Part shown: one piece after another, positions 4,403-19,107 of the stretch | How positions within the stretch are numbered: the first letter of the stretch is position 1 | Layout: every line of letters starts with the position of its first letter | From: a virus | Reading direction: 5' to 3' (one strand) | Virus record (IMG/VR): IMGVR_UViG_3300017737_001556 | Span: 1-21,009 of that record | Length of the DNA stretch: 21,009 nt | Made by a program: the position numbers and the translations under genes | Notes under the pieces: generated by a model | What the model saw: only the letters and a program-made list of their open reading frames with translations | What the model was told of the DNA's origin: nothing | Databases searched by the model: none

Positions 4403-6211
4403 TTATTTACTTGTTGGATATGCTCCTCTATCACTTCTTGTTCTTTCTGCTTTTGCAGCTCTTTTATGTCCTCTTGGCTTTGCTTTATAGCTTTTAGGTA
4501 TTTCCTTAACTACATCATAATCACCTAACTTTTTACTTCCTTTTTTACCATCTAAAGCAGCATCAATTTTCATTTTATATAAAACTTCTCTCCACTTATG
4601 TCTACAATAAATCCCACCTTTGAACTTAAATAGGTCGTACTTTTGACCATTATGCATAGGTAGTTCAGCAGCTTTAAAATTTAAATTTCTACTTGCTTTA
4701 TCAATATCTTCTAATCTAAATACAACACCTCTTTTGCTTCTAGACATCATTTCCTCACAGAACTTTCTAGAACTGCTCTTAGAACCTTTCTTAGTGCCTA
4801 CATCGTACTTGTACCTAACTTTGTAATAAGACTTATCTAATATTGAAAATCCTTCTGGATTGTTTTTAATAGGTGTATCACTTTTAACTGCTTCTGCTAA
4901 GTGTAAAACATTGCCAGCCCATTCTTCAACATTTGAGTTTTCTTCGCTAACATCTCTAATGTCTGCTATTTCCCATTCATCACTCATTAATTCACCTTCT
5001 AAACCTTCTAAAACAGTATCAAATACATCATCAGGTATATCAGTTTTTTTAGAAGCCATCATTTCTAGCTTAGAAAAATCATCTTCTTTTACACCAGTTT
5101 CTTCTTCTTGTACTTCGTCATTAGCTACTTCAACTTCTATAAATTCTAAAGGATCACTTGTCTTAAAGTAAAGGTTTAAGCTTATTCCGTTAACCTCTAG
5201 TATCTCGTTTAAAGCATCACAAATTAAGTCTTGATATGGTTTTATAGTAGTGTTAGAAAATAACCTTTGTGCAGTTCTAATTTCATCTTCATTAGAACCT
5301 AATCCACTACCACCCATGTCTCTTAATCCAATAAGTAATGGAGAAGTAACACGATGTGTTAAAAGAATCATTCTCTTGCATTCTTCACTTAAATATTCAT
5401 AAAGCTCTGGTGCTTGTTGTACTGGTAAGCTGTCGATGGTCGTTTTTTGCTCTGCATTGTGGTTAAATGCTACAATTACCTTTTCGCCATTTGCTCCAGT
5501 TAGTCTATTTAAAACTTGAGATTTAATCTCTTGCATTTTTTGTTCTGAAGGTACTCCACTATTGAAATTAACTATAGTTCTAGAATTAAAACTAGACATA
5601 GTTTCATTAATAAGATAATCTGCAATCTCCGATTCTAGAACGGGGTACGAAGTAGACCAATCACAAGGACTATAGTAGTAATAAGAAGGGATATATTTCT
5701 TAATTACATAAATTTCATTGCCACTATTTTTAGAGCCAAAAACAGGCATCTTAGTTAGTTCTGTAGCTTGGGTTACTTTAGTCCAATCAGGTGCATAGAA
5801 GTAGTTCTCTATCTTCCCTTTATCGTTCATTTTTTCAGCACGTAAAGTTTCTCTAGGGAAATGAGAAATTGAAGCTATTTTTTTACCTTTGTAAGTAACT
5901 TGTAAAGAAGCTTCTCCTAACATTTTAAGATCTAAACATACCTTTCTTAAACAGTCTGGTTTTAGCAGTCCTTTCATTTGAGCATATTGCTCTGGTTTTT
6001 TAGAAGAATCTGTTGCATCTAATCCTCTACCGTAAATTTGTTGACCTATTCCTGTAATAACACTTCTATTTGTTGTGCTATTCATATAGGCATCTATAAG
6101 GTCTTGATAGTAGTTATTATCTTCTCCTATTCCAACCCAGTCTCTGTTCTTTTCTTCAGTTATTACTGGTTTTTCGTATTGGCTTAATTCAAGTAGATGT
6201 ACGTTGTTCAT
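4403..6211 (-). CDS. Portal protein with C-terminal MuF-like domain (fusion)
   Basis: The product has 602 residues. Residues 1-360 match the layout of tailed-phage portal proteins: an N-terminal WVGIGEDNNYYQDLIDAYMNS segment, VCLDLKMLGEASLQV around 91-105, a Tyr-rich stretch at 173-181 and a helical HRVTSPLLIGLRD core around 286-298. An acidic linker covers about 360-425. Residues 455-548 contain SRKFC (481-485), GVVFRLEDID (495-504) and FKGGIYCRHKW (530-540). This Cys-to-CRH spacing is typical of MuF-type minor head proteins. A Lys/Arg-rich tail ends the protein. The portal forms the dodecameric DNA gate. The start overlaps the previous stop as ATGA. The portal call is firm; the MuF assignment is from pattern recognition. 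Confidence 0.85.
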   Translation of the reverse strand: MNNVHLLELSQYEKPVITEEKNRDWVGIGEDNNYYQDLIDAYMNSTTNRSVITGIGQQIYGRGLDATDSSKKPEQYAQMKGLLKPDCLRKVCLDLKMLGEASLQVTYKGKKIASISHFPRETLRAEKMNDKGKIENYFYAPDWTKVTQATELTKMPVFGSKNSGNEIYVIKKYIPSYYYYSPCDWSTSYPVLESEIADYLINETMSSFNSRTIVNFNSGVPSEQKMQEIKSQVLNRLTGANGEKVIVAFNHNAEQKTTIDSLPVQQAPELYEYLSEECKRMILLTHRVTSPLLIGLRDMGGSGLGSNEDEIRTAQRLFSNTTIKPYQDLICDALNEILEVNGISLNLYFKTSDPLEFIEVEVANDEVQEEETGVKEDDFSKLEMMASKKTDIPDDVFDTVLEGLEGELMSDEWEIADIRDVSEENSNVEEWAGNVLHLAEAVKSDTPIKNNPEGFSILDKSYYKVRYKYDVGTKKGSKSSSRKFCEEMMSRSKRGVVFRLEDIDKASRNLNFKAAELPMHNGQKYDLFKFKGGIYCRHKWREVLYKMKIDAALDGKKGSKKLGDYDVVKEIPKSYKAKPRGHKRAAKAERTRSDRGAYPTSK

Positions 6212-6564
6212 GGTGCAGAGTAATATGTGTATTCATTAGCTCCTGTATTGTGTTGTGTATAAACACCAGAAGTCATTTCATAAGTTGATGAAGCTTGATT
6301 AGTACAAAAAACCTTGTCTCTAAATATTAATTTATCGTCTGTAGTATTTTGTATTTCTATCATGTAAAAAGAACCCTCTATAAGAGCTTGTGAGGTTACA
6401 TAAGTAGAATAGAAACTATTGCTGCCTATTGATGCATTAGAATCCGTTAAAATCACCTTATTCTTGTTTTTAGAAGTTATTTTTAAAGTGTAGGTTTTAC
6501 TACTAGAAATATCCTCTCTAGGTATAAAATTTATTGTTCCGCCTGTTGTACTTAATATCTGCAT
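6208..6564 (-). CDS. Conserved beta-rich structural protein of unknown function
   Basis: The product has 118 residues. It is rich in Thr, Ser, Tyr and Ile with alternating polar/hydrophobic stretches (TINFIPRED near 10, YTLKITSKNKNKVILTDS around 25-42, SFYMIEIQN near 66), which suggests a small beta-sandwich. It is the first gene after the terminator at 6576-6610 and overlaps the portal start by 4 nt, so it is co-translated with the portal. No catalytic motif is seen. A small virion protein, for example a decoration or head-tail joining protein, is plausible but unproven. Confidence 0.65.
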   Translation of the reverse strand: MQILSTTGGTINFIPREDISSSKTYTLKITSKNKNKVILTDSNASIGSNSFYSTYVTSQALIEGSFYMIEIQNTTDDKLIFRDKVFCTNQASSTYEMTSGVYTQHNTGANEYTYYSAP

Positions 6565-6575
6565 CTTAATCTTTT

Positions 6576-6610
6576 AAAAAAAAAGGTGGTTTAAAATTAA
6601 TCGAACCACC
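6576..6610 (-). terminator. Rho-independent terminator after the tail-tube-like gene
   Basis: On the minus strand GGTGGTT (6610-6604) pairs with AACCACC (6591-6585) across a 12-nt AT-rich loop. The stem is followed directly by nine T (6584-6576). It lies between the 182-residue gene and the 118-residue gene. Confidence 0.85.
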
Positions 6611-6623
6611 CTTTTCACACCCT

Positions 6624-6650
6624 GTACTATATGTACTTTACATATAATAC
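6624..6650. repeat. Near-perfect inverted repeat, possible operator or RNA hairpin
   Basis: TATATGTA, CTT, TACATATA forms a perfect 8-bp palindrome (6628-6646). It extends by GTA/TAC (6624-6626 and 6648-6650) after a single mismatched position on each side. It sits between the stop of the 182-residue gene and the terminator. It has no T tract of its own, so it is not a terminator. It could be a protein-binding site or a 3' mRNA stabilising hairpin. Confidence 0.6.
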
Positions 6651-6662
6651 CCACTAAACATC

Positions 6663-7211
6663 TTAACTGTTTGTACCTACAACTACAGTTGCAGTAGCAC
6701 TAGACATTCCAGCAAATGGATTGCCAGCAACAGCTCCAGCTATAAAGTTTGCTGGTAATTTTTCACTACCTGAAAGAGTTAATGTTGTTCCACTCATGTC
6801 AGCGAAAGCTGCTCCAGTAGTTATACTACCACCCGAAACACTAAGACCGAAATCTTTTCCAGCCAAAAACGCATTATTATTATTGTCAACAATAACACAA
6901 TGAGGTCGGCTAAAAGCCATAAGCTTAAATTGAACCATATCTTCTTTAGTAAGTTTCTGTAGGTTTAATGTTAAAGTTTGCTCGAAAAAAGTAGTTCCAG
7001 CATCTTGAGAAGAAGTAATAGCTTGCTCTAATGAGTTAGCACCCTTTACTAGGTACTTATACGCTGAAAATGTTCCAGCCATGTCTGTAATCTCATCTGA
7101 GCTTTCTGTTATAGCACCAAGATCACCAAAGTCTACAAAGTAAACTGCATCAATCCCACCTACTACATCTTTACAAGGTACATTTCTACCCGCTGATAAA
7201 TCGCATGCCAT
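6663..7211 (-). CDS. Probable major tail (tube) protein
   Basis: The product has 182 residues. It begins MACDLSAGRNVPCKDVVGGI, continues with VYFVDFGD and has a YKYLVKGANSLEQAITSS segment around 51-68 and FFEQTLTLNLQKLTKEDMVQF around 74-94. This arrangement of beta strands is seen in tail-tube-like proteins of Bacteroidetes phages. It is followed by HCVIVDNNNNAFLAGKDFG and an Ala/Gly/Ser/Thr-rich C-terminus. The gene directly follows the major capsid gene and is flanked by intrinsic terminators on both sides, a setting expected for one of the most abundant virion proteins. A head decoration protein is an alternative. An A-rich leader precedes the ATG. Confidence 0.65.
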   Translation of the reverse strand: MACDLSAGRNVPCKDVVGGIDAVYFVDFGDLGAITESSDEITDMAGTFSAYKYLVKGANSLEQAITSSQDAGTTFFEQTLTLNLQKLTKEDMVQFKLMAFSRPHCVIVDNNNNAFLAGKDFGLSVSGGSITTGAAFADMSGTTLTLSGSEKLPANFIAGAVAGNPFAGMSSATATVVVGTNS

Positions 7212-7224
7212 ATTTGTTATTTTT

Positions 7225-7249
7225 AAAAAGGGGAGTATTACAACTCCCC
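7225..7249 (-). terminator. Rho-independent terminator after the major capsid gene
   Basis: On the minus strand GGGGAGT (7249-7243) pairs with ACTCCCC (7236-7230) around a 6-nt loop. Five T (7229-7225) follow, and the next gene starts at 7211. It probably allows partial readthrough, since no clear promoter separates the two genes. Confidence 0.85.
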
Positions 7250-7265
7250 ATTATTAGTTAATTAA

Positions 7266-8210
7266 TTAGGTATAGTAAGTAACTTCTTCAAGTAACCCAG
7301 TCTGAATACCAGCTTTAAATCTTGCAACAAATCTTACATTTTGGTCACCTAGCGTTGAACTTGTATCAATTAAGGACATTTCTGATAAGTCCCCTTCAAT
7401 ACCACAACCAAAGAATAAGTTTGATTTTTGTGCAGCAGCCATGTCATTAGTTGGTAATCCAGGAGCTTTAAATATTTTGATTCCATCAAACATTAATGCA
7501 TTTCCTAAATCTTGGTTGTTACCTTTTCCATCAAAACCATTAGCACCTAAACCAGCAGCACCAAAACCACCAAGTGATCTTACATACATTTGATAAATGT
7601 GATTTGATACATAGATGTGTAAATCTTCTTTGTCTAATAAAGCAGAATTGTTTGCACTTACATTGTCAACTACTTTTCCAATTTCGTCTACAACATTAGC
7701 AGCAGTTACAGTAGTACCAGTAACAACAGCTCCACCAGCTAGTGAAGAAGCATTAGCAGCCCAAGTAGTTGTGAAACCATCAAAAGCATTTGCTCCAGCT
7801 GCACCTTGCCAAATCATTGTCTCAACATTAGCAGCAATTTTAGCTACATATTGTTGTGAGATAAAATCTGCATAACTTTTAGGTAGTACATAATTAGGTA
7901 CTGAATAACCCATTTGTGCGCTAGTCCAATCCTGTGAGAATGTAGTTTTACACTCTGTTTTGTTTATTTGAAATTCTTTTACTTCTAGTACTCTTTCTGA
8001 AATTGTTACAGTTCCAGCATCTGTATAATCACAAGAAGCACCAACCATTAAGTCGTTACCTAGTGCAATTTTCTTTATTACTTCTTTATAAGCTACATTT
8101 GGATAAACTGTAACCCCACCATTATCAAGTGTCTTACCACTCAATAAAGCTGCTGCTATCATTTTATCTTTATATTCCCCTACGTAACTTGTCGTTAACG
8201 ATGTTGCCAT
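7266..8210 (-). CDS. Major capsid protein (HK97 fold)
   Basis: The product has 314 residues, a usual size for a capsid subunit whose scaffold is separate. Features are an N-terminal arm (MATSLTTSYVGEYKDKMI), an extended-loop-like region (LEVKEFQINKTECKTTFSQDW around 75-95), a long spine-helix candidate (FISQQYVAKIAANVETMIWQGAAG around 116-139) and a C-terminal strand set (VRFVARFKAGIQTGLLEEVTYY). It sits directly after protease and scaffold genes and is followed by a terminator, as expected for an abundant product. The leader is A-rich (AATAAAATAAAATG) without a Shine-Dalgarno site. The call rests on context plus this architecture. Confidence 0.85.
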   Translation of the reverse strand: MATSLTTSYVGEYKDKMIAAALLSGKTLDNGGVTVYPNVAYKEVIKKIALGNDLMVGASCDYTDAGTVTISERVLEVKEFQINKTECKTTFSQDWTSAQMGYSVPNYVLPKSYADFISQQYVAKIAANVETMIWQGAAGANAFDGFTTTWAANASSLAGGAVVTGTTVTAANVVDEIGKVVDNVSANNSALLDKEDLHIYVSNHIYQMYVRSLGGFGAAGLGANGFDGKGNNQDLGNALMFDGIKIFKAPGLPTNDMAAAQKSNLFFGCGIEGDLSEMSLIDTSSTLGDQNVRFVARFKAGIQTGLLEEVTYYT

Positions 8211-8222
8211 TTTATTTTATTT

Positions 8223-8807
8223 TTATTGATTAAGTTTTTGATAAATTCTATTTTGGATAGTGTTGGGATAGCTCTTTTTTAATAAAGACTTAGTTTCAGA
8301 TTTAGCTTCTGGATTGTGAACAACTGGTTCAGCAACTTCAGCAGATAATTCTTCTTTTTCTACTTCTTCTTTCATTTCTTCTTTAGACATATTTTCAATC
8401 ATGCCTTTAATTTCTTCCATAGCTTTAGAAAATTCTTCTTTAGTGACATATTTCATTTCTTCTTCTTCTAATTCAGTTTCTTCAACTTTTTCTTCTTCAG
8501 TTGCAGTTTCTTCAGAAGCTTCTACCTCTTCTTCTTCCTTAACTTCTACTTCTCCAATAGCATCAATAAGGCCTTCTTCTTTAACCATTAATTTTCTGCC
8601 ATCTTCTAAAGCATACTCACCTACTGGTAAAGCAATATTTTCATCATCTTCTGATTTAATAAATATTGATTCTCCTGATTCGAATTTTTCGGCAACTAGG
8701 ATAGTTCCGTTATCTAATTTGATTTCTTCTAGTTGTACAGATACCTCTTCAGATAGTTCAATACCTACAACTTCTTTGATTTTACTAAGTATTTCTTGCG
8801 CCTTCAT
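8223..8807 (-). CDS. Probable capsid scaffolding protein
   Basis: The product has 194 residues. Residues 25-80 form a small predicted beta domain (DNGTILVAEKFESGESIFI, NIALPVGEYALEDGRKLMV, EEGLIDAI). Residues 85-155 are extremely Glu-rich, and 119-155 look helical and coiled (VTKEEFSKAMEEIKGMIENM). The C-terminus is basic (LLKKSYPNTIQNRIYQKLNQ), a common way for scaffolds to contact the coat protein. The gene lies between the protease and the major capsid protein, the usual scaffold position. It starts at an ATG preceded by the repeated 36-nt element shared with the tail chaperone gene. Confidence 0.75.
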   Translation of the reverse strand: MKAQEILSKIKEVVGIELSEEVSVQLEEIKLDNGTILVAEKFESGESIFIKSEDDENIALPVGEYALEDGRKLMVKEEGLIDAIGEVEVKEEEEVEASEETATEEEKVEETELEEEEMKYVTKEEFSKAMEEIKGMIENMSKEEMKEEVEKEELSAEVAEPVVHNPEAKSETKSLLKKSYPNTIQNRIYQKLNQ

Positions 8808-8840
8808 ACTAGTTATCCGTACAAAAGCGCAAATTGATAT
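8805..8840 (-). promoter_or_regulatory. Repeated upstream element, copy 1
   Basis: Read on the minus strand, this 36-nt element contains ATATCA, one variable base, TTT, a 10-nt variable segment and ACGGATAACTAGTATG, ending in the start codon of the scaffold gene. Copy 2 at 17655-17690 has the same layout and length, with 27 of 36 positions identical. GGAT may serve as a weak ribosome site; the distal block could be part of a promoter or operator. Confidence 0.55.
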
Positions 8841-8860
8841 ACTTATTTTTAAACTTTTTT

Positions 8861-9016
8861 TTAGCCAGCTCCTATGCCTTGAGCGTGTAATGATCCATCA
8901 CAGCATTTTTTACTGTATGTTTTACTATCTGCACATAAGCAACCACGCTTTCCACCTACTGGGGATGTTCTGCTTTTTCTACCTGAAGGTATTTTTTCAA
9001 CTTTTCTTCTTTTCAT
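8861..9016 (-). CDS. Small Cys-rich basic protein (51 residues)
   Basis: ATG at 9016-9014 opens a 51-residue frame ending in TAA at 8863-8861, which fills the gap between protease and scaffold genes. The N-terminus is strongly basic (MKRRKVEKIPSGRKSR). The C-terminal half reads GCLCADSKTYSKKCCDGSLH followed by AQGIG. The four cysteines in CxC and CC pairs look like a compact metal- or disulfide-bearing peptide, and I recall similar short proteins in other Bacteroidetes phages. It starts 2 bases after the protease stop, so it is translationally linked. The function is unknown. Confidence 0.7.
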   Translation of the reverse strand: MKRRKVEKIPSGRKSRTSPVGGKRGCLCADSKTYSKKCCDGSLHAQGIGAG

Positions 9017-9018
9017 CT

Positions 9019-10197
9019 CTATTTAATTGGTACACAGTTAGGTACTTTTTTACCATTTTTTATCTTCATTCCATACTGCTCATAACCAGCTTGACAAGGT
9101 TTTTTCATTTCGTGCTTTTCACAAGGCATAAACCAGTCTTTATCTTCAAAATTATGAACGTGAAACCCTTCACAACCTAAGTTTTTAGCCATTTGTTCTG
9201 CTTTTTCTTGTGTACTGTAAGCTAATCTGTCATCTATTATTGCAAAATTGTCATCTACTACCATAGAAGCTAGATCTATTTCTCCTAATTTTTTTAGTTT
9301 GCTTTCACTCCATCTAAGGGCAGCTTTACCACCCCACAACAAATAAGAAATAGTACCACATGCTTCATTGTTTCCTTCGTCATAGTATTCACCAGCTCTG
9401 CTTAAATAAGAATACATTCTTTTAATTGTTTCTACTGAAAGATTTCTTTTTGCTTCTAAATCAGCACTCCTTATTTTTCCTATATCAGTTGCACATTTAT
9501 TATTTACTTTTTCATTAAGTTCTCTGCCTCTTTTAGCATTGTTACTAACTGCATCTGGATAATCATTATAAGATTCTAGTTCTACATTCTCATCAGATAA
9601 AATGTTTTTAATATTACTTAGCATGTATTCAGCTTCTTCTTCTTCTATAGCTGCCATTTCAGATTTAGCATCTGATTTTTTAATAGAAGCTTTATCTGCA
9701 AAATATCCTTCAATAGAAAAACCTTTATATTTTTTACCTTCTTTAATTTCTGCCCATAATTCATCATCTGTAATTTTCATTGAAATCATCCAAGTTCCTT
9801 TTGGCACATCTAAACCATAAATTCTAGATTTATCTTGTTCTCCTTCAACTATCCAACTTTCGACCACCGTAAGGCCAGAAGCTTTCATTTGATGCTCTAA
9901 GGTTGCATTACTTTGGTTGCCATTTTGAAAGAATAATTCACTTGACCTTCTAACTGTATCTTCTGAAAAATAAACATAAAACATAGTATCGTTTCTCTTT
10001 CTAAATATTGGCTTGTTAGGTATTAAAGCAGCACCCATAACAATACGCTTTTCATCATCTACTTTAGCCAGTTTTATTTCTTGATCTGCTAGTGCTATAA
10101 AATCACTTTCAATTGCTGGGTTTTCTACGATAGAAACAGCTTCTATACCTACCATTTCTTCGTTTTCTTCATCTAATATTAATTCTATTATATCCAT
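9019..10197 (-). CDS. XkdF-like prohead protease with extra C-terminal domains
   Basis: The product has 392 residues. Residues 15-170 match the XkdF-type phage serine protease layout: VSIVENPAIESDF near 21-33, VMGAALIPNKPIFR around 53-66, the candidate catalytic His in NATLEHQ (H102) and the candidate Ser in KGFSIEGYF (S161). Residues 215-305 form a helical domain (NAKRGRELNEK, CATDIGKIRSADL, ACGTISYLLWGGKAALRW). Residues 325-392 are Cys/His-rich (AYSTQEKAEQMA, GCEGFHVHNF, WFMPCEKHEM, PCQAGYEQYG, VPNCVP). The protease would mature the capsid, and the scaffold and coat genes follow at once. The later domains are of unknown role, perhaps auxiliary virion parts released by cleavage. Confidence 0.8.
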   Translation of the reverse strand: MDIIELILDEENEEMVGIEAVSIVENPAIESDFIALADQEIKLAKVDDEKRIVMGAALIPNKPIFRKRNDTMFYVYFSEDTVRRSSELFFQNGNQSNATLEHQMKASGLTVVESWIVEGEQDKSRIYGLDVPKGTWMISMKITDDELWAEIKEGKKYKGFSIEGYFADKASIKKSDAKSEMAAIEEEEAEYMLSNIKNILSDENVELESYNDYPDAVSNNAKRGRELNEKVNNKCATDIGKIRSADLEAKRNLSVETIKRMYSYLSRAGEYYDEGNNEACGTISYLLWGGKAALRWSESKLKKLGEIDLASMVVDDNFAIIDDRLAYSTQEKAEQMAKNLGCEGFHVHNFEDKDWFMPCEKHEMKKPCQAGYEQYGMKIKNGKKVPNCVPIK

Positions 10198-10208
10198 TTT
10201 GTTTTGTT

Positions 10209-12077
10209 TTAAAAAGTTGCTTGTTGAATAGTGTTGTTAGCGAGTTGTTGTGCGGTAGTAACATCTCCAGAAACTACAAATGCTTGTACTGGTTGTTGTT
10301 GGCCTAATGCTCCAGCTACTTGGTTAAACCCTGATTGACCCACAACATTAAAACTTGGAGCTTGCGTTGGAGAAGTATTTGCTCCACCAGTACTTGTTGA
10401 AGGTGATGTAGTATCAAAAGAACTACTATTAAATTGTGTTTTTTGTATGTTCTTTACTTGTGCAATACCAGATGCAGTTACTATTGCTGCATTAATAAAA
10501 TTTAGAGGTGGTGCAGAACTTGCTAATGCTTTAGAAACACCAACAGAAGTATTTATTATTGCGTTGGCTATTCCTATTGCTTTATTTACTTCAAATGCTT
10601 TCTTTTGGCTTGCTTCATCTTCTTTTGCAAATGCTTGTGTTAATTCATTGATAGCAATTAAAGCATTCATTGTTGTGGCTGCTGCTATTTCAAAAGCATC
10701 TAAGTTTTCTTGTCTTGATTTTTTAGTTTGTTCTTCTACACTAATTGTTTGGTCAGCAATTTCTTTATCTCTTAATAAGTTTTGTTGTCTTGATTGTTCT
10801 TTAAACTCATTTAAAGCAATTTCAGCATCTATCTTAGCTTGTGTACCAGCATTAGCATTATCTATTACAGTTTGCAGTCTTGCAGTTTCTATTTCTTGTT
10901 CTTCAGCATCTATTTTTTGTAATTCTAATAACCTTTTCTTTTCATCTTCTATTTGTTCTGCATTAAACCTTTTTCTTTCAATAGCTAAATTATTTTCAGA
11001 TTCAAGTTTAGAATTGATAAGTTCTTGTGCTTCTTTTTCAAGTGCTGCTTCATTTGTCTGTTGTTCACTTCTAAAACCAGCTACTTGCGCTCTAACTGCT
11101 GCAAGCTCGTTCTCAGCTTCCATTACAGCTTTTTTAGACTCTACATTATCTTTATCTTTTTTTAGTTCTGCTCTTGCTGATCTTAATGAAATTTTAGCAT
11201 TTTCAAGCATTGCAGCTTGTTGTTTTTCAAGTATTAAACCAAGTTCATCATTTGCTTTTTTTCTCTCGTCTATACTTTTTCTTTCATCATCTCTTATCTG
11301 TCTTTGTGATTCAGCTAATAAATCATATTTTTCAATAAGGCCTTGATTAGCTACAGCAGCAAGTTCGGCAGTTTTTTTAAGTTCTACATTTGCAGTAGCT
11401 TGCTTTACTGTAGATTTAGTGTATTCTGTTAATGCAGTTACACCCTCACTAATTACTTCTGTTGCTTTCTCTACTGAATTTTCTACTCCTGTAATTGAAT
11501 CTACAAATGAACTACCAGCATCTTTTGCAGAATCCATAGCGCCAGAAAAATCACCTTTTAAAACTTTAGCAACTACTTTAGACAAATGACCAAAAGTGTC
11601 TATTGTTGCTTTTATTCTATTAATTATATTTTCTATAACAGCTTTTCCAAATGCTTTTATACTTTCTACAGGATCATCAAATATTTTCTTGAAAAAGCCA
11701 GAAACTGCACCTACATTTTTAGATATAAAATTAAAGAAGTCATTAAAAGCTATAGACAAACCTTCAAATGCAATATTAAAAGTATCTACTACTTTTTGGT
11801 TTTCTTCAAATAGTTGTTTTAATAAACCAAATGCTGCAATTGCTAACCCAATACCAGCAGCTTTTAATGCAGTACCCATCATTTTAAAACCACCAGCAAC
11901 TCCTTTAGCACCTTTTTTTAATGTATCTAATGCTTTACCACCTTTTTTTAAATCACCTACTTCAGTATTAGTTTTTTCTAAACCAGTATTAAGAGTTTCA
12001 ACTTCACTAGATAAATTTTCAATATCTTTTTCAGCTTTACCAGTCTTTGTTATTATTTCAAATATTTTAGTTATCAT
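10209..12077 (-). CDS. Tail tape measure protein
   Basis: The product has 622 residues. An N-terminal coiled coil (about 10-50) is followed by a Gly/Ala/Lys segment and a hydrophobic stretch (MMGTALKAAGIGLAIAAFGL, about 67-86). Residues 250-450 are a long charged coiled coil rich in Gln, Glu, Lys and Ala. A second hydrophobic region around 500-540 (INTSVGVSKALASSAPPLNF) precedes a Ser/Thr/Gln-rich C-terminus. This is the standard tape-measure layout. At the usual 1.5 angstrom per residue it predicts a tail near 90 nm. Unusually, the tail chaperone gene is about 4.8 kb upstream instead of adjacent. The start overlaps a 47-residue ORF by 11 nt. Confidence 0.85.
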   Translation of the reverse strand: MITKIFEIITKTGKAEKDIENLSSEVETLNTGLEKTNTEVGDLKKGGKALDTLKKGAKGVAGGFKMMGTALKAAGIGLAIAAFGLLKQLFEENQKVVDTFNIAFEGLSIAFNDFFNFISKNVGAVSGFFKKIFDDPVESIKAFGKAVIENIINRIKATIDTFGHLSKVVAKVLKGDFSGAMDSAKDAGSSFVDSITGVENSVEKATEVISEGVTALTEYTKSTVKQATANVELKKTAELAAVANQGLIEKYDLLAESQRQIRDDERKSIDERKKANDELGLILEKQQAAMLENAKISLRSARAELKKDKDNVESKKAVMEAENELAAVRAQVAGFRSEQQTNEAALEKEAQELINSKLESENNLAIERKRFNAEQIEDEKKRLLELQKIDAEEQEIETARLQTVIDNANAGTQAKIDAEIALNEFKEQSRQQNLLRDKEIADQTISVEEQTKKSRQENLDAFEIAAATTMNALIAINELTQAFAKEDEASQKKAFEVNKAIGIANAIINTSVGVSKALASSAPPLNFINAAIVTASGIAQVKNIQKTQFNSSSFDTTSPSTSTGGANTSPTQAPSFNVVGQSGFNQVAGALGQQQPVQAFVVSGDVTTAQQLANNTIQQATF

Positions 12078-12210
12078 GCTTCATTCTTAATTGGTTTAAA
12101 CCTTCTCTAATTGTTAGTGGTACTTTGTTAGATCCTAATGCTATATTAATGTGTTTATCATATAATTTATTATCCTTACAAAATTCTAATGCTTCTAATA
12201 TTGTTTTCAT
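12067..12210 (-). CDS. Small hypothetical protein (47 residues)
   Basis: ATG at 12210-12208, two bases after the stop of the large tail gene, opens a 47-residue frame ending in TAA at 12069-12067. It overlaps the tape measure start by 11 nt. The peptide (MKTILEALEFCKDNKLYDKH, then NIALGSNKVPLTIREGLNQL) looks like a compact helical protein and fills an otherwise unexplained gap of about 135 bases. The tight spacing on both sides supports translation. The function is unknown; a tail assembly accessory is possible. Confidence 0.6.
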   Translation of the reverse strand: MKTILEALEFCKDNKLYDKHINIALGSNKVPLTIREGLNQLRMKHDN

Positions 12211-12212
12211 AA

Positions 12213-14495
12213 TTACCCCCCTGAATCTGAACCACTTGAACCACTTGTACTATCTGAACTGCTTGAGCTATCTGAACTGCTTGAGCTTGTAGGTAGTTCT
12301 GATGGTTCGTTTAGTAGTTCAAAATTTGTTTCTCCTGATTGTAGTTTAGTGGACATTTTATTAATTGTATAAGCTCTTGTGCCAACCACAATTAAATCAT
12401 CTAATGTTAGATTTAATAATACTTTTAAAGGCAATATTGCAGAGAACTTAAATATCCTTGTTTTTTTGTTAAATACTCTTGTAATGTAGTTAGTGTAGTA
12501 AGTTTGAAATAAACTGTTATTATTACCACCATAATCTGTTAATTGATAACTATCTATTTCACTACCAAAATTTAAGTTGTATGTAGGTGGTGTTGTAGAT
12601 GTGCCTAATTCATTACAAGCACTTGGAATCCAGTAATCGTTTAAACTTGTGTTTGTCCCTATTGGACACAAAGCACCATATGTTTCTGGTCTTGTACTTT
12701 CTAAATAATTTATATTGTCTTGATTCTGTTGATAGATAGCATAAAATAAAAGTGGTTGCCCTATACTTGGATTTAAATCATCATCTAAGAAACTGCCAAC
12801 TTGTATTGTGCTTAAAGCGCCACTTGTTTTATCTTGTAGTCTTTCAAACAACATATGCTCAAATGGTAAAGTAATTTTGTATTCATTCTTTTTACTTGCA
12901 TCACCAATGTAGTTTAGTTCACCATATCTTCTGTTGTTCATACTTCTAAAAGTTTGAGCAAGTATGCTTTTTGGCTCACTATATTCTAAATCTACGTTTG
13001 AAAATGGCAATGCCTCTCCTACAGTATGTTCATCTGTTTTAACAAACTCTGTAATATTAAAAGTATCACCAGCGGCATAATAACTATCTAAAGTTTTAAC
13101 TACTATCTGGTCATTAAAATCAACATAAGCAGTCAAGTTAAAAGCTCTAAACAAGCCATTTAAAAAATCTTTAATTGATAATTCTGGTATTTGTTCAGTA
13201 ATTATTATTGTAGCACTTGTTACAATACTTGAAGATGAGCTAGTGTAGTTTGCTGTTAAACTATAATCATACCTTCCTAAAGCTAAATCAAAATAAGAAT
13301 GTTCTATTGAAAGCGCAGCAGAAAATGTTAAAGGATCAACACTTCTTACTCTTGCAAATAATCTCTTAGACTCATTTAATGATAGTGTGTTAGTTTGTAA
13401 TTTACCATAACCTATTGAATGGCTTTGAGTGCCTAATAAATTATTTGCAGTTGCAACAATAGTATCTGTTAAGCTATCTACTATTTCAATTGAATAAGGT
13501 ATTGTGCTTGAAGCTGGTGTTATTGTAGCAGTAAATTTAAATCCTTCTTCATAACCATTTGTATACGCTTGTGTAAATATGTAATCACCATTACTAAATT
13601 GAACAGATGGATAAAGAACACCATTATAATGATTACAGTTAGAAGTGCCTGAAGTACAGTTAAAGGTTGTGTTGCTTAATTCAGTTAATAAATCTCCAGT
13701 AATTCTTCCTTTTGCTCTATGTAGCCACAAATACAAATTAGTCATTGCAGCAGAGTCTAGAAATTCACTTGTTTTAAAAGTTATATTATACTGTTCTTCA
13801 ATTGCTTTAATAATATTCTTTACTGGTATAGCTGGTTTTAAATCTTCTGGAACTACACCCCTTTGTTGATGATGTGATGAATTTGTACTAATATTTAAAC
13901 CATTGCTTAAATTAGCTGAACCATTTTGATTATCGTAAATATAACTTTGTGAATGTGCTATTAATGGATATATAATTGCATTGTTATAAGTAACTGAATC
14001 AATAACAAAATCTTTTCCATTTTCTAAAGCATCTTTTACATAATCAGCATCTGCATCGTGATTAAAGTTGTTTAACCAAACTAAATCACTAAGCTGGTCT
14101 TCATTAATCTTATCTTTAAAAGTTACTGTATTACCAAAGAATGTTACCTTATACATTGAAGGTTCTCCAAATTTCATTACAACTTCATTAAGCTGTATTT
14201 TACCAAACCTAAAATGTAAATGGTTTAATTCAATTCTTGATTCACAAAATACATTAGCATCAAATCCTTCTATATCTGGATTGTACCAATGCTTAAAAAT
14301 CTTGTTATTAGTTTTACTTGCTGGTAAATTAAAAGTTCTACTGTAATCAGTAAACAGTTTATCTATATCACTAACATCTTGAATAACTTGAGTTAATGAA
14401 ATTAATTCTTCTTCCATTAAATCAACTCTAACATAGTCTTGTGTAGTTGTTGTATTTCTTAACTGTGGCTGTATGTATAGAATAACTTTTTGCAC
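12213..14495 (-). CDS. Large distal-tail/baseplate protein with Ser/Asp/Gly-rich C-terminal tail
   Basis: The product has 760 residues and starts at GTG: the sequence TAGTG joins the previous gene's TAG stop to this start. The N-terminal 150 residues (LTQVIQDVSDIDKLFTDYSR, TFNLPASKTNNKIFKHWYN, FDANVFCESRIELNHLHFRF) form a conserved block I associate with Bacteroidetes-phage tail proteins. A mixed alpha/beta body follows, with ELSIKDFLNGLFRAFNLTAY around 460-480 resembling domains of tail hub proteins. The last 24 residues are almost only Ser, Asp, Gly and Thr, encoded by short tandem DNA repeats. Its place next to the tape measure supports a distal tail or hub role, but the exact component is not resolved. 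Confidence 0.7.
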   Translation of the reverse strand: MQKVILYIQPQLRNTTTTQDYVRVDLMEEELISLTQVIQDVSDIDKLFTDYSRTFNLPASKTNNKIFKHWYNPDIEGFDANVFCESRIELNHLHFRFGKIQLNEVVMKFGEPSMYKVTFFGNTVTFKDKINEDQLSDLVWLNNFNHDADADYVKDALENGKDFVIDSVTYNNAIIYPLIAHSQSYIYDNQNGSANLSNGLNISTNSSHHQQRGVVPEDLKPAIPVKNIIKAIEEQYNITFKTSEFLDSAAMTNLYLWLHRAKGRITGDLLTELSNTTFNCTSGTSNCNHYNGVLYPSVQFSNGDYIFTQAYTNGYEEGFKFTATITPASSTIPYSIEIVDSLTDTIVATANNLLGTQSHSIGYGKLQTNTLSLNESKRLFARVRSVDPLTFSAALSIEHSYFDLALGRYDYSLTANYTSSSSSIVTSATIIITEQIPELSIKDFLNGLFRAFNLTAYVDFNDQIVVKTLDSYYAAGDTFNITEFVKTDEHTVGEALPFSNVDLEYSEPKSILAQTFRSMNNRRYGELNYIGDASKKNEYKITLPFEHMLFERLQDKTSGALSTIQVGSFLDDDLNPSIGQPLLFYAIYQQNQDNINYLESTRPETYGALCPIGTNTSLNDYWIPSACNELGTSTTPPTYNLNFGSEIDSYQLTDYGGNNNSLFQTYYTNYITRVFNKKTRIFKFSAILPLKVLLNLTLDDLIVVGTRAYTINKMSTKLQSGETNFELLNEPSELPTSSSSSDSSSSSDSTSGSSGSDSGG
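12228..12285. repeat. Short tandem repeats encoding a Ser/Asp-rich tail
   Basis: Two perfect 9-bp units (12228-12236, 12237-12245; TGAACCACT on the plus strand) are followed by two perfect 18-bp units (12250-12267, 12268-12285; CTATCTGAACTGCTTGAG). All are multiples of three in the minus-strand reading frame, so copy-number change would keep the frame of the 760-residue protein. Confidence 0.85.
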
Positions 14496-15637
14496 TATCT
14501 AATATTGTTTACTAAAGCAAAAGATTTATCAAAACTCATTGTGTAATTAATTAACCTATCGTTTAAACCTGTTTTATAAGTAAATGAACTATCTTTTAAA
14601 TTAACTGGATAAATATTAGCATTAGAATCTGTTAGCCAGATGTATTCACTAACCATTAATTCTTCAAAATATGGATTCATTAATTCATTAACAAAACCAG
14701 TATTTAAAACAACTGATTCTGTAGCGTTAGCATTAAATGTTTTCTTTGCGTGTGCTGTTGTTGAATACAAATTATATTCTGTTGTGATTCTACAAGGGTC
14801 TTCTGGTCTCGATCCAGGGTCAATATTTACTCTCCTTGCCTGAAAAATACTTGCATTATAATTTTCACTTCTTGATTCTAAAGTTTCTGTTGACTTCTTA
14901 AAAAAGAATAAATCTTGAATTGCTCCCCATCTATTTACAAATGTTATTTTATTTACTGAATATTTACATTCTTCAATACCTTTTAAATTTATAGTTTTAA
15001 AAGTTGAGTCATTATATATTACAGCTTTAGTTAAATCTTCTACATAAGTTTCAGCATATTGAGAGTATTGTATTTTTTGATTTTGATTGCCATTGTCAGA
15101 ATAATTATCTTGTTGCAGTAAAGTTCCATTAGAGTTATAAAATTCTACACGAGTAACTCTTTCTACATTTACTGGTATAGTAACACGTGTTCCTTTATGA
15201 TATTCAAGGTATGTTCCACTAATCATTGCAATAGGTTCAGTTGTGTAGTTTACACCTTCTTTAAATTTATTATACCCTTCTTGTGCTAAGTAAGTGTTTG
15301 TTGTTACTGAACCAATAGCTGTTCCATCTGATTCTCTTGCTGATGTTGTTACAGTCACCCAAATAGAACTTTTTTCTGAAGATGCAGAATAAAAACCAGT
15401 AAATATTTGCTCTATGTGATCGTTTACTATTTCACTTATATCAACAGTAACAGAATCTTCTGCTCCTAATGGTTTTTTCTGTAATGAGTAAGCTGCATAT
15501 AAGTCATCACATAATTCTGATGATGTAGCTATACCACCAAATACAGTTATGTTAATTTGAAAGTAACTTAAACTGCTACTTGTTTGTTGTGGTGTTCTTA
15601 TAAAGAAAGGGCTTCTTGTTCTAATTATTGTACTCAT
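14495..15637 (-). CDS. Tail/baseplate structural protein
   Basis: The product has 380 residues. It is rich in beta-forming stretches: IRTRSPFFIRTPQ at the start, VTVDISEIVNDHIEQIFTGF around 63-82, GTYLEYHKGTRVTIPVNV around 140-157, a conserved-looking ITFVNRWGAIQDLFFFKKST near 229-248, and a C-terminal LNDRLINYTMSFDKSFALVN. I associate the RWGAIQDLFFFK pattern with tail proteins of Bacteroidetes phages. The gene is coupled to both neighbours (ATGA overlap upstream, TAGTG overlap downstream). Its place between the gp10-like gene and the large 760-residue tail gene supports a tail role. No enzyme motif is visible. Confidence 0.65.
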   Translation of the reverse strand: MSTIIRTRSPFFIRTPQQTSSSLSYFQINITVFGGIATSSELCDDLYAAYSLQKKPLGAEDSVTVDISEIVNDHIEQIFTGFYSASSEKSSIWVTVTTSARESDGTAIGSVTTNTYLAQEGYNKFKEGVNYTTEPIAMISGTYLEYHKGTRVTIPVNVERVTRVEFYNSNGTLLQQDNYSDNGNQNQKIQYSQYAETYVEDLTKAVIYNDSTFKTINLKGIEECKYSVNKITFVNRWGAIQDLFFFKKSTETLESRSENYNASIFQARRVNIDPGSRPEDPCRITTEYNLYSTTAHAKKTFNANATESVVLNTGFVNELMNPYFEELMVSEYIWLTDSNANIYPVNLKDSSFTYKTGLNDRLINYTMSFDKSFALVNNIR

Positions 15638-16203
15638 TTTTTAACTAATTCTTTTAATACATCATTACCATAGGAGACTGCAATATCATCTCCAAATCTT
15701 TTAATACCAGCTTCAAAAGGTTTTGTAAAAAACATACTTGGTCTTAGTCCTCTATTGTAGATGTTACTTGCTATAACATATCCTAAAGACTTATAACCAC
15801 CTTTTTTATACCTTCCTTTATCATCTCTAAATCTTATATTTTTTCTTTGTGCAAATGCTGACATTTGATTTACAAAATCTTTAAAAGTTTTGTTTGATTT
15901 ACCACTACCAAATCTAAATTTAGAATTTGGTGCTTGTTGTCCCTTTATTTTTGCGTTAGGTGAAACTTTACTTGGGTCTTTTCCTTTAACTCCTTGATCT
16001 TGGAAAACTCCATAATCTTCCATTAAGAACTCTACAGAATACCCTGTTGCAAATCTACCACCAGAACTTCTTCTTTGTTGTATGATATAATCTAAACTGT
16101 TGTATAACTTACCACCACCTTTTTTTTCTTTTGTCAGGTTACTTTTAGCTTGTTGTACAACATACTTTGCATAAGCTTCTATGGCTTGTTTAAATTCACT
16201 CAT
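15634..16203 (-). CDS. HK97 gp10-like / minor tail-completion protein
   Basis: The product has 189 residues and is strongly basic. It begins with a helix (FKQAIEAYAKYVVQQAKSNL), then GGKLYNSLDYIIQ, a Gly-containing strand region (FATGYSVEFLMEDYGVFQDQ) and a C-terminal PSMFFTKPFEAGIKRFGDDI. This order is that of HK97 gp10-like head-tail closure and tail proteins, which act at the head-tail interface. Its neighbour upstream looks like a tail completion protein, consistent with that role. Starts and stops interlock (TAATG upstream, ATGA downstream). The family assignment is by pattern only. Confidence 0.7.
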   Translation of the reverse strand: MSEFKQAIEAYAKYVVQQAKSNLTKEKKGGGKLYNSLDYIIQQRRSSGGRFATGYSVEFLMEDYGVFQDQGVKGKDPSKVSPNAKIKGQQAPNSKFRFGSGKSNKTFKDFVNQMSAFAQRKNIRFRDDKGRYKKGGYKSLGYVIASNIYNRGLRPSMFFTKPFEAGIKRFGDDIAVSYGNDVLKELVKK

Positions 16204-16658
16204 TAGCAGTAAGTCATTTCATCTTTAGCATTCACATCAAACGTTACTGCCCAGCCAGCTAAAGCATTATCAAATCTTTCAGTAAAGGGTTCACAGCTTG
16301 CTGCATTAGGCAATTCAAAATCTTGTTTGTATAGGTTGCTTTTTTGTAATACTCTTATAACTCTAGTAGCTAGAGCTGCTTGTGTATTTAACACGTCCTG
16401 TGTATTGTCATTCCCTAGAAATAAACTAGCATCTGGTTCTTTACTTACATCTACTAAATCCATTAGAAATAGTGTTACATTAAATGAAACGTGTTGTTGT
16501 TCTACAGTCATATTATTTACCATGATATGAGCTAATGGAAAAATACTTTGCTTACTTAAATCAATGTCTGCTATATCTCCAAAACTTACATTGTTGTTAA
16601 ATGGTTCTGCATTTACTGCTGTCTTAATACTGTCTATTACGTTGTAAAAACTTTTCAT
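16203..16658 (-). CDS. Probable tail terminator/completion protein
   Basis: The product has 151 residues. The pattern of an N-terminal helix (FYNVIDSIKTAVNAEPFNNN), IFPLAHIMVNNMTVE near 39-53, a strand HVSFNVTLFLMDLVDVS near 56-72, a helix TQAALATRVIRVLQK near 91-105 and a final strand LAGWAVTFDVNAK resembles tail-terminator and tail-completion folds (a beta sheet packed on helices). It lies before the gp10-like gene, as is common in siphophages. It overlaps the 88-residue gene as ATGA. The function is inferred from fold pattern and context. Confidence 0.65.
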   Translation of the reverse strand: MKSFYNVIDSIKTAVNAEPFNNNVSFGDIADIDLSKQSIFPLAHIMVNNMTVEQQHVSFNVTLFLMDLVDVSKEPDASLFLGNDNTQDVLNTQAALATRVIRVLQKSNLYKQDFELPNAASCEPFTERFDNALAGWAVTFDVNAKDEMTYC

Positions 16659-16921
16659 GTGCTTTTTATATATAATGGTGTTCCTTCACCTAAATCTTCT
16701 TCTACAAATTCTTCTAAGTAATCAATGGCATCATCAAAGTCTACACCCTCTTTATGTATGATACAGTCTAAACACTTCCAATAGTCATAAATTACTCTCT
16801 TGGGTTTAGTTACAGTAATACCTAAAAAAGCATCTTCAAAACCATCTGCAAGCATTACATACTCATAGTCTTGTAAATCTTCTTTATTTATTATTATATC
16901 TAATATTTCTTCCCTTGTCAT
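16655..16921 (-). CDS. Conserved small phage protein (88 residues)
   Basis: The sequence YEYVMLADGFEDAFLGITVT (around 19-38), RVIYDYWKCLDCII (around 42-55), DDAIDYLEEFVEEDLGE and TPLYIK follows a pattern widespread in phages: DGF.-AF.GI, then YDY-KC, then EAI.Y, then a TP ending. It is acidic and soluble. In this window it begins with ATGA overlapping the stop of the -1 frame of the tail chaperone, so its translation is coupled to ribosomes that have frameshifted. Its biochemical role is unknown to me. Confidence 0.75.
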   Translation of the reverse strand: MTREEILDIIINKEDLQDYEYVMLADGFEDAFLGITVTKPKRVIYDYWKCLDCIIHKEGVDFDDAIDYLEEFVEEDLGEGTPLYIKST

Positions 16922-17172
16922 TTGTTTCTTTTTAGTAGGTGTTGCTCTAGTTCATATTTATCTTTTTCAAATGCTAACTGCATTAAACACTTATGTAATT
17001 TTTGTTTAGTTATTTCATTAAAGTGGAGGATGCTTCCATTTGCCAGTCCATAGATAGATTGATACCAGCCCCATTTTTGAGAGAATCCTGAAGTTCTTGA
17101 GAGATCGGCACTTCCGTTTGATTCGCCAAATAATTCAGGATATGAGTCTGTAATTCGTTTCTTAGTTTCCAA
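16918..17172 (-). CDS. -1 frameshift extension of the tail assembly chaperone (T domain)
   Basis: This open stretch in the -1 frame covers 84 codons if read from TTG at 17172, with no ATG near its start. It is better read as the C-terminal part of a fusion made by slipping at T TTT TTT. The product would join 162 residues of the upstream frame to these residues (246 in total). The sequence WGWYQSIYGLANGSILHFNE then ITKQKLHKCLMQLAFEKDKY resembles the C-terminal domains of frameshifted tail chaperones, which bind the tape measure or tube protein. Its stop overlaps the next start as ATGA. About 160 bases are read in both frames. Confidence 0.75.
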   Translation of the reverse strand: METKKRITDSYPELFGESNGSADLSRTSGFSQKWGWYQSIYGLANGSILHFNEITKQKLHKCLMQLAFEKDKYELEQHLLKRNK

Positions 17173-17657
17173 AAAAAAACCATTGAGCCAAACACAACAT
17201 CTAAAGTCATTTGTTTCATGTTGTACTTATCAGCAGTTTCATATTCTTCTATCAAGTATTGATTCTTCTTCTTAAAAGTTATTGGTCTATATAATACACT
17301 CATTGCTTTGTGCATTAGTTGCCAGTCTGCTAAGTAAGTATCTAAGTCTACATATTCTCCAAAAGTCATGTCATCTAGCTTAGGTATAAAACCAAAGTCT
17401 TGATCTTGGTATTTAAATCTGTCAATGAACTTATTTTCTTTTTGATTAAATAGCTTAGATATTTGAACCACTATTGATTCTATATCTTTTGCTTTAATCA
17501 GCATTACTTGTTTCAGCGTTACACCACAGAATATTTCTATCATCTTCTGCTGTAAGAAGTTGTCTAGCTCCTTATCTTCTGCAACTTTTAACCATTGCTG
17601 GTACTGATCTAAAGTAACTTCGCTTAGTGATTCGGGTATGTTTAGTGTTAGCTTCAT
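17010..17657 (-). CDS. Tail assembly chaperone (gpG-like), zero-frame product
   Basis: The product has 215 residues. It is helical and acidic-to-neutral: LTLNIPESLSEVTLDQYQQW (3-22), FCGVTLKQVMLIKAKDIESI, FIPKLDDMTFGEYVDLDTYL (about 91-110), then LMHKAMSVLYRPIT and MTLDVVFGSMVFFWKLRNEL. The FGEYVDL and LYRPI motifs recur in tail-chaperone proteins of many siphophages and myophages. Codons 160-163 read GTT TTT TTT TGG, a run of nine T, where the frame can shift to the overlapping -1 ORF. The zero frame continues 53 codons past the slip site and overlaps that ORF. The gene opens the tail module right after terminase, behind a repeated 36-nt element. Confidence 0.8.
   Translation of the reverse strand: MKLTLNIPESLSEVTLDQYQQWLKVAEDKELDNFLQQKMIEIFCGVTLKQVMLIKAKDIESIVVQISKLFNQKENKFIDRFKYQDQDFGFIPKLDDMTFGEYVDLDTYLADWQLMHKAMSVLYRPITFKKKNQYLIEEYETADKYNMKQMTLDVVFGSMVFFWKLRNELQTHILNYLANQTEVPISQELQDSLKNGAGINLSMDWQMEASSTLMK
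17085..17141 (-). other. Possible stem-loop downstream of the frameshift site
   Basis: On the minus strand ATCCTGAA (17141-17134) can pair perfectly with TTCAGGAT (17092-17085) across a 41-nt loop. It begins 30 nt after the slippery heptamer, farther than classic stimulators, so its role is uncertain. Confidence 0.35.
17172..17178 (-). promoter_or_regulatory. Slippery heptamer T TTT TTT for -1 frameshifting
   Basis: The minus strand reads G followed by nine T and GG (17180-17169). In the zero frame this is GTT TTT TTT TGG. The heptamer T TTT TTT fits the X XXY YYZ rule exactly, with both tRNAs re-pairing after a one-base backward slip onto the -1 frame that encodes the T domain. Confidence 0.75.
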
Positions 17658-17690
17658 ATTAGTTATCCGTTATAATGTTTAAAATGATAT
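17655..17690 (-). promoter_or_regulatory. Repeated upstream element, copy 2
   Basis: On the minus strand this has ATATCA, a variable base, TTT, a 10-nt spacer and ACGGATAACTAATATG ending at the tail chaperone start codon. It has the same layout and length as copy 1 at 8805-8840. It occupies most of the 41-nt gap after the large terminase gene, one of the few true intergenic gaps here. Confidence 0.55.
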
Positions 17691-17698
17691 CCACGTTT

Positions 17699-18874
17699 TT
17701 AATATAAATGATAAGTTCCCCTATTAGGATTTTCTAATTCCATCATCATGGCATACCTAGCAGCATCTATTGCATGGTCTCCTGTCATAGGGTTTGGCTT
17801 CTGTAAACTATTGCCTTGTTTGTCTTTCATCCAGATATAACCTTCTAATTCTTTCTTTAGGTTTTTGCTTCTTGATGTTACAAATACTTCATTCTGATTT
17901 ATTAGGTTAATACCATACACAATAGAATCTCTGCCTTTAGTTACTGGATAAACATCTACACCACTAAGTCTTATTTCTGCAATTGATTTAGGTTCTGCTG
18001 AATCTGCATAGATGTAACAGTCAATATTATTGTTCTTGATAAAATTAGATATGTCTCTATTTAACATTCCTGTTTTATAAAGCACTTCATCAAATATGTA
18101 GCTATCGTTGTATTTGTATAGTAAGCACATAGCAGAACTATCTACAGAATAACCAAAGTCTAATCCAGCACAAAGCAATCTAGCTTCTTCTGGTATCATG
18201 TCAATTTCTTTCCAGTCTGGAATGCAAGCACCTTCTAAACTTCCTACTTCACCATCTAAATAAACTCTACACCAATTCTTCCAATAGCTAGAAGTCTTTG
18301 CTTTTACTCTAGCTTTCTCTAGTTCGTTTACTATTGATTCTGGTAGTGATTCATTGTCTTTGTAAGTAAGTGTAATAAAGTCTGTATCAGATTGCCCTAT
18401 CAATTCTTTGTCGACCCAGAATAAAGAAGTTGGATTATAATCTAGCCAAATGTTTTCAGATGTTCTTATACTTAATTCTTGGTAGCTGCTAAATGGTACG
18501 TTGTTACATTCGTTGATATAAAGATCTGTTCTTCTAGCACCTCTTAGTTTGTCAGGTTGGTCAGTAGAAAAGAACTCTATGTAAGAACCTGTCCAAAATT
18601 CGTATTTTAAAGTGCTTCTATTAAATTCTTTTTCCCTATACCTATTTAGACCTTTCATAATGCCTAAGAAGTCTTTTAAAGCACCTCTACGCAAATGTGG
18701 TATTGATTCACTAACTACACTTATTTCTTTGTTCTCGTGTCTTAAAGCATAGTCTATTAAAATACATAGAATTGCTATTGTCTTACCAGCACTAGATCCA
18801 CCTCTTACAATCTTAGTTCTTTGATTAAGTTTCCTTAACCTTTTAACTGCTGTTGTTCTTTCTGGTTTCATCAA
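17699..18874 (-). CDS. terL: Terminase large subunit
   Basis: The product has 391 residues. The ATPase domain has a Walker A motif GGSSAGKT (25-32), LRGARRTDLYINE (110-122) with the Walker B acidic pair at its end, and a motif III-like LDYNPTSLF (144-152). The nuclease domain has CAGLDFGYSVD (candidate metal ligand D239), YIYADSAEPKSI (D291) and GDHAIDAARYA (D366/D370). This is the motor that cuts concatemers and pumps DNA through the portal. It is short compared with many terminases but holds all expected motifs. It starts within the small-terminase stop (4-nt overlap). No domain loss is apparent. Confidence 0.95.
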   Translation of the reverse strand: MMKPERTTAVKRLRKLNQRTKIVRGGSSAGKTIAILCILIDYALRHENKEISVVSESIPHLRRGALKDFLGIMKGLNRYREKEFNRSTLKYEFWTGSYIEFFSTDQPDKLRGARRTDLYINECNNVPFSSYQELSIRTSENIWLDYNPTSLFWVDKELIGQSDTDFITLTYKDNESLPESIVNELEKARVKAKTSSYWKNWCRVYLDGEVGSLEGACIPDWKEIDMIPEEARLLCAGLDFGYSVDSSAMCLLYKYNDSYIFDEVLYKTGMLNRDISNFIKNNNIDCYIYADSAEPKSIAEIRLSGVDVYPVTKGRDSIVYGINLINQNEVFVTSRSKNLKKELEGYIWMKDKQGNSLQKPNPMTGDHAIDAARYAMMMELENPNRGTYHLY

Positions 18875-19107
18875 TCAATAAACAGTGGCAAATCTTTATT
18901 TACTGTTATGTCTTTTGTTTCTGTTGGTTTTCCAAATCTTCTATCTAAGTATATTGTAATAGCTCTTAGATCACCTTTTTTAATTAGTTCATTAAGCTTA
19001 TGTATTACTTCATCTTTATCTATAATTCTGTCTAACCTTTCTATAAGCTTATCTTCATCTGCTTTAGTTGGTCTACCAGCTCCTTTTCTTACACCACCAT
19101 GTCCCAT
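18871..19107 (-). CDS. Terminase small subunit-like DNA-binding protein
   Basis: The product has 78 residues. It begins GHGGVRKGAGRPTKADEDKL, and the GAGRP motif is typical of small terminase and related phage DNA-binding proteins. Two helical stretches follow (LDRIIDKDEVIHKLNELIKK and LRAITIYLDRRFGKP), with the RRFGKP block often seen near the end of such proteins. It lies directly before the large terminase with a 4-nt overlap. It is short for a complete small subunit (often 140-180 residues), so it may be a minimal form. Confidence 0.75.
   Translation of the reverse strand: MGHGGVRKGAGRPTKADEDKLIERLDRIIDKDEVIHKLNELIKKGDLRAITIYLDRRFGKPTETKDITVNKDLPLFID

Follow-up and report, generated by a model that had tools for sequence, protein, structure and literature searches.

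Frameshifted tail chaperones are already known, and the closest described system is the G/GT gene of phage lambda. This gene lies directly before the tape measure gene and encodes two products, gpG and gpGT, which have a common N-terminal domain and of which the longer results when decoding shifts by -1 close to the 3' end of G. Shifts of this type are ribosomal and low-level, and seemingly proceed without stimulatory signals (PMC5009743). A second point of reference is given by genes expressed through transcriptional slippage, such as Thermus dnaX, Shigella mxiE/spa13, and those of IS elements, in which about nine or more A or T in the coding sequence lead to products with differing C-termini. 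Bacterial polymerase is known to slip with high efficiency on stretches of nine A or nine T (PMC5009743).

The window, i.e., the whole stretch of 21,009 nucleotides that we analysed (IMG/VR record IMGVR_UViG_3300017737_001556), holds a gene that resembles both kinds of system; all of its elements are on the minus strand. The zero-frame gene (17010..17657) encodes 215 aa, a G-like product made of a 162-residue N-terminal domain and a 53-residue tail, and matches PHROG_32199, a family of unknown function. Its codons 160-163 (GTT TTT TTT TGG, 17169..17180; Val160-Phe-Phe-Trp163) contain a homopolymer of nine T (17171..17179), which is the slip site. The open -1 frame extends over 84 codons plus a stop (16918..17172), from a TTG at 17172 to a TGA at 16920-16918, has no ATG near the slip site, and encodes the all-helical, T-like C-terminal domain of the fusion. 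A -1 shift at the T9 gives a fusion of 162+84 = 246 aa. Because the zero frame extends 53 codons beyond Phe162, about 160 bases (17010..17172) are decoded in both frames. The third (+1) frame meets a TAA (17162..17164) two codons past the run. The next gene (16655..16921, 88 aa), a match to PHROG_13182, also of unknown function, begins with an ATG at 16921 that overlaps the -1 stop as ATGA. An earlier note, made from the sequence alone, had placed the T9, the 84-codon -1 frame, the 53-codon overlap, and the ATGA junction; we re-found them all at the same positions.

As in lambda gpG/gpGT and the counterparts in other long-tailed phages, the two predicted products have a common N-terminal domain and the longer one arises by a -1 shift; likewise, the gene lies among tail genes in a phage that encodes a tape measure protein, and a stimulatory RNA signal is not apparent. 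It differs from lambda in that the slip site is a homopolymer of T9-T11, and in that the zero frame continues for 15-83 codons (53 in the window) as a selected tail. Furthermore, the gene follows that of the large terminase (TerL), some 5 kb before the tape measure gene, and we detected no sequence homology with the lambda proteins. The transcriptional slippage genes share with it the length of the run and the differing C-termini, but they are not phage tail genes, and here an in-phase ribosomal heptamer is present as well.

Homologues are carried by two isolates, P12024S (isolated on Persicivirga/Nonlabens IMCC12024) and P12024L. In Nonlabens phage P12024S, gp38 and gp39 (L082:12001-12695, JQ823122.1; PHROG_32199 and PHROG_38404) look like one frameshifted gene: the homologous pair follows TerL, has C-T9-A in the same codon phase, and encodes the second domain in the -1 frame, although its zero-frame tail is shorter (24 codons). 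The deposited record describes two separate hypothetical genes, the second starting from an internal ATG, and gp39 thus annotated misses its first residues. Bacterial genomes rarely contain homologues (3/299 genomes from the family to which a Winogradskyella MAG belongs). One bacterial homologue lies deep within a long contig and is therefore probably part of a prophage. A homologue in a bacterial genome, L377, has in-frame stops, so that it probably belongs to a decaying prophage, and retains the T9 run.

We gathered 345 distinct homologous genes, diverging down to ~25% protein identity, from IMG/VR contigs, bacterial genomes, phage records, and 299 genomes of one bacterial family. Every one of them has at least nine T at the site (T9 in 271, T10 in 73, T11 in 1, shorter in none) and places its second domain in the -1 frame, which is the direction of shift claimed before. 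Among the 281 distinct genes tabulated, the codon pattern is invariably NNT TTT TTT TNN, and the T_TTT_TTT heptamer is always in the zero-frame phase. Elsewhere, TTT represents 76% of the Phe codons, GTT 40% of those for Val, CTT 16% for Leu, and ATT 38% for Ile. No residue of the gene is better conserved than the T run. The T10 cases arise by substitution in the flanking codons and not by indels, thus preserving the frame relation. At 32% GC, ~3.5 A/T runs of nine or more are expected in the window and 2 are seen; a lone T9 is unremarkable in such AT-rich DNA, and the part that chance does not explain is its conservation. The window's second run of nine (6576-6584) forms the U-tract in what looks like an intrinsic terminator (6576-6610, minus strand), GGTGGTTCGATTAATTTTAAACCACC then T9, between the genes of a 182-aa and a 118-aa protein.

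These data bear on two trivial explanations. A chance overlap of the frames is rejected, the T run and the -1 relation being kept in 345/345 genes. A sequencing or assembly error in the homopolymer deserves mention because T9 runs are prone to errors in certain sequencing chemistries; its probability is negligible given the agreement of 345 distinct genes, the isolate P12024S included, and the substitutional origin of the T10 cases with their frame relation intact. Recoding at the T run is thus real and conserved, and a long tail that is dual-coded accompanies it. The earlier note's claim of two products from a single gene is supported by the universal -1 relation together with the selection on both frames described below.

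Could the -1 ORF instead be a separate gene, expressed from an internal start or by translational coupling? This is how P12024S was annotated, with an ATG that overlaps the zero-frame stop. Yet a -1-frame ATG near the junction is missing in 274 of the 281 genes, TTG or GTG is found there in only 100/281, and the similarity reaches right to the T run. Independent initiation is therefore very improbable, and the claim that the -1 frame lacks a start of its own holds across the family, where start codons at this place are not conserved.

We then analysed the overlap with three tests, on substitutions by codon position, openness, and conditional similarity. In close pairs, the zero-frame DNA upstream of the overlap changes at rates of 0.031/0.012/0.123 at the three codon positions and the -1-only DNA at 0.028/0.020/0.117, while the overlap changes at 0.027/0.090/0.076 at zero-frame positions 1/2/3. 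The third-position rate hence falls from 0.12 upstream to 0.076, and zero-frame position 2, which is the third position of the -1 frame, changes at 0.090 versus 0.117 in -1-only DNA. Both silent classes are slowed in the overlap, where change is slowest at the position that counts most for the two frames alike. For the openness test, we shuffled synonymous codons with the -1 protein held fixed: the simulated zero frame closes at a median of ~5 codons, whereas the real tails have a median of 54. Each of the representatives has a tail above its simulated median (108/108; median P 0.0075). Since the representatives are related to each other, combined P values are not to be taken as probabilities and we quote none. 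The reverse test holds as well. Given the -1 protein, the similarity of the zero frames has a mean z of 2.8-3.5, against 1.3-1.6 for the control (third) frame; since the control is itself above zero, the evidence is in the excess and not in the raw z.

The rival view of the tail is that it has no function and is conserved merely as a shadow of the -1 domain. Part of its motif, e.g., NGDGINxSM, indeed directly mirrors the KWGWYQSIY motif of the -1 frame, and its length varies among relatives from 15 to 83 codons. The 53 codons of the window are accordingly no fixed feature: a long overlap is the rule and its exact length is not. This view is nevertheless unlikely, because the zero frame is open far longer than simulated at a fixed -1 protein, is conserved more than the control frame, and overlaps third positions of the -1 frame that change more slowly than those in -1-only DNA. 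By all three tests, selection acts on both frames in the overlap. The comparison of codon conservation in both frames proposed in the earlier note thereby bears out its claim of true dual coding. In a freshwater group (L357:3992-4758 and other loci), the zero frame is open over 83 of the 91 codons of the -1 frame, and the second domain is dual-coded almost throughout.

Two mechanisms are the main candidates for the slip. If it were transcriptional slippage alone, the polymerase would yield mRNAs with 8-11 U, and from these zero-frame, -1-frame, and quickly ended +1-frame products. If it were classical -1 ribosomal frameshifting, tRNA-Phe would slip in tandem on U_UUU_UUU, and the flanking T's would be kept only for the residues they encode. 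The length of the run speaks for the polymerase: it is at least nine throughout the 345 genes, and slippage is established at nine A/T in bacteria (PMC1088944, PMC5009743). In five genes, from approximately three lineages, the 5' T is lost (codon 1 is AGT or GGT), and codon 4 is TTN in each of them, so that their run holds at 9-10 and never falls to 8; this, too, weighs against ribosomal frameshifting. L033 and L034, which are 95.8% identical over 240 upstream bases, differ by both the loss of the 5' T and the codon-4 change. As TTN occupies codon 4 in ~16% of the other genes, three independent cases have a chance of ~0.004, a post hoc figure that depends on our count of lineages. Amino-acid constraints in both frames could explain part of the rule of at least nine. 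The heptamer speaks for the ribosome: T TTT TTT is in phase in every gene tabulated and is as invariant as the run, so ribosomal slippage stays a candidate. In E. coli, U_UUU_UUU is much less shifty than A_AAA_AAG (PMC5009743), which weighs against it.

Stimulatory signals were not found. Across 106 representatives, we detected no downstream structure among pseudoknot-free folds (mean folding z 0.16 and 0.10), and SD-like 4-mers occur in only 9. This favours slippage by the polymerase, although lambda-type G/GT shifts, which are known to be ribosomal, apparently do without a stimulator too (PMC5009743). A stop in the +1 frame, which would quickly end the third product of transcriptional slippage, follows the run by 2-3 codons in 281/281 relatives. 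It seems largely forced by the conserved Leu codons of the zero frame and the Lys/Arg codons of the -1 frame, and we therefore reject it as a designed fail-safe and give it less weight as evidence for the polymerase.

The avoidance of T runs elsewhere in these loci gives further information. In the other ORFs of related loci (1354 ORFs, 1.0 Mb, with shift sites excluded by homology), we saw 1 run of at least nine T against 40 expected from synonymous shuffling. T8 runs starting at codon position 1, which lack an in-phase heptamer, number 6 against 30 expected, a roughly five-fold avoidance that fits a cost at the level of transcription and that ribosomal frameshifting does not account for. For T7 runs, the ratio of observed to expected is 0.44 in the slippery phase versus 0.66 and 0.55 out of phase, and this somewhat stronger avoidance in phase is on the side of the ribosome. 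The phase test used 1368 ORFs, including 14 chaperone-like genes that leaked into the control set and apparently account for its 14 T9 runs at codon position 2; the T8 comparison is unaffected. Overall, avoidance is largely independent of frame, in line with slippage by the polymerase. Termination of transcription at U-tracts could contribute to it, instead of or beside slippage. The coding strands in these phages avoid runs of at least eight T far more strongly than they do A runs of equal length. In a study of 108 bacterial genomes, selection against A/T runs commonly sets in at length nine, although some AT-rich genomes do not avoid 9A/9T and may suppress slippage (PMC1088944), a reservation that applies here.

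Judged on these sequence patterns, slippage by the polymerase alone has about an even chance of being the mechanism, classical ribosomal frameshifting may be given somewhat less than that, and the rest goes to both or to something else. The earlier note described a "perfect T TTT TTT" slip site. The heptamer stands, in phase in 281/281 genes; its use by the ribosome is made less certain by the run that is never below nine, the lack of a stimulatory signal, and the frame-independent avoidance.

The neighbourhood of the gene suggests a role. The large terminase gene lies directly upstream (17699..18874, minus strand; TIGR01547, E 8.9e-26, with 91.2 bits, under the family's curated cut-off of 105), and similarity to TerL is found upstream on the same strand in 266/281 loci. 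Homologues of the downstream genes of the window also follow on the same strand in related loci. The tape measure gene (10209..12077, minus strand), which matches tail length tape measure PHROGs, is ~5 kb downstream, and 14 of 18 larger related records have a homologue of it. By the gene order of the window, the recoded gene therefore lies among tail genes, in a phage that encodes a tape measure protein, though it does not directly precede the tape measure gene in the way that lambda G/GT does. The gene order from 4403 to 19107, all on one strand, is unusual in that the terminase, the tail genes, and the tape measure are followed by a protease and by major capsid-like and portal-like proteins, the last two labelled by eye from sequence. 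A single protein (9022-10197, minus strand) has an XkdF-type protease domain (PF14550) followed by a match to DUF3721 (PF12518).

Homology searches with the gene products were less informative. We found no family for them in Pfam or NCBIfam and no convincing match in sequence and fold searches of the PDB. A second look with another structural aligner gave just small DNA-binding and unrelated matches (Z <= 2.6), which we take as noise; from this lack of matches it does not follow that the fold is new. In PHROG, the matching families have no known function, and 9/76 members weakly hit phrog_166 ("tail protein"). We modelled the zero-frame protein and the -1 domain apart with AlphaFold: the former has helices and two beta pairs (pLDDT 81, with low confidence from about residue 181), and the latter is all helical (pLDDT 76). 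Matches in BFVD are mostly uncharacterised phage proteins, among them I6R9M9 of P12024S, and include one weak match to a protein named as a chaperone (E 0.13). Another weak BFVD match, from Flavobacterium phage 6H (TM ~0.3), does not establish a relation: it has no T9, and its -1 frame closes right after an FFY stretch of similar appearance. Since the searches returned no known chaperone, the role is deduced from architecture and position, by which the best reading is that the pair is probably a tail assembly chaperone of the lambda G/GT type. The "chaperone-like T domain" of the earlier note fits in these two respects and has no match to a known tail chaperone in sequence or in the PDB.

Taken together, we find it likely that this is a recoding site by which one gene makes two proteins in tailed phages probably infecting Flavobacteriia. 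Most decoding would remain in the zero frame and give the 215-aa G-like protein, while a minority would slip at the T9 into the -1 frame and give the 246-aa GT-like fusion, which exchanges the 53-residue tail for the 84-residue helical domain. Both tails would be functional protein, so that the overlap would be dual-coded, as the selection tests support. By analogy with lambda gpG/gpGT, the common domain may bind the tape measure protein and the -1 domain may recruit tail tube subunits. The slip itself would be driven by the homopolymer, and we slightly favour a polymerase that adds one U at T9-T11 over tandem slippage of tRNA-Phe; both may contribute. Tentatively, and short of calling it probable, these aquatic phages may form a large and hardly characterised group in which slippage of the polymerase at T9-T11, and not frameshifting by the ribosome, makes a G/GT-like pair of which the short form has a selected, dual-coded tail. 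A fixed T9-T11 slip site with a long selected alternative tail, shared by a large group of aquatic phages, was not described in the literature that we searched, whose coverage of subscription journals is thin, and this is no proof of novelty.

Where this gene pair was annotated at all, it appeared as two unrelated hypothetical proteins, and it can now be read as one recoded gene, probably a tail chaperone, that hundreds of phages from marine and freshwater habitats carry. Given so long an overlap under selection, one may ask what role the alternative tail plays in the short form. If the polymerase does slip, the ratio of the two forms would be set at transcription, and this would be a different way of setting the chaperone ratio that controls tail assembly.
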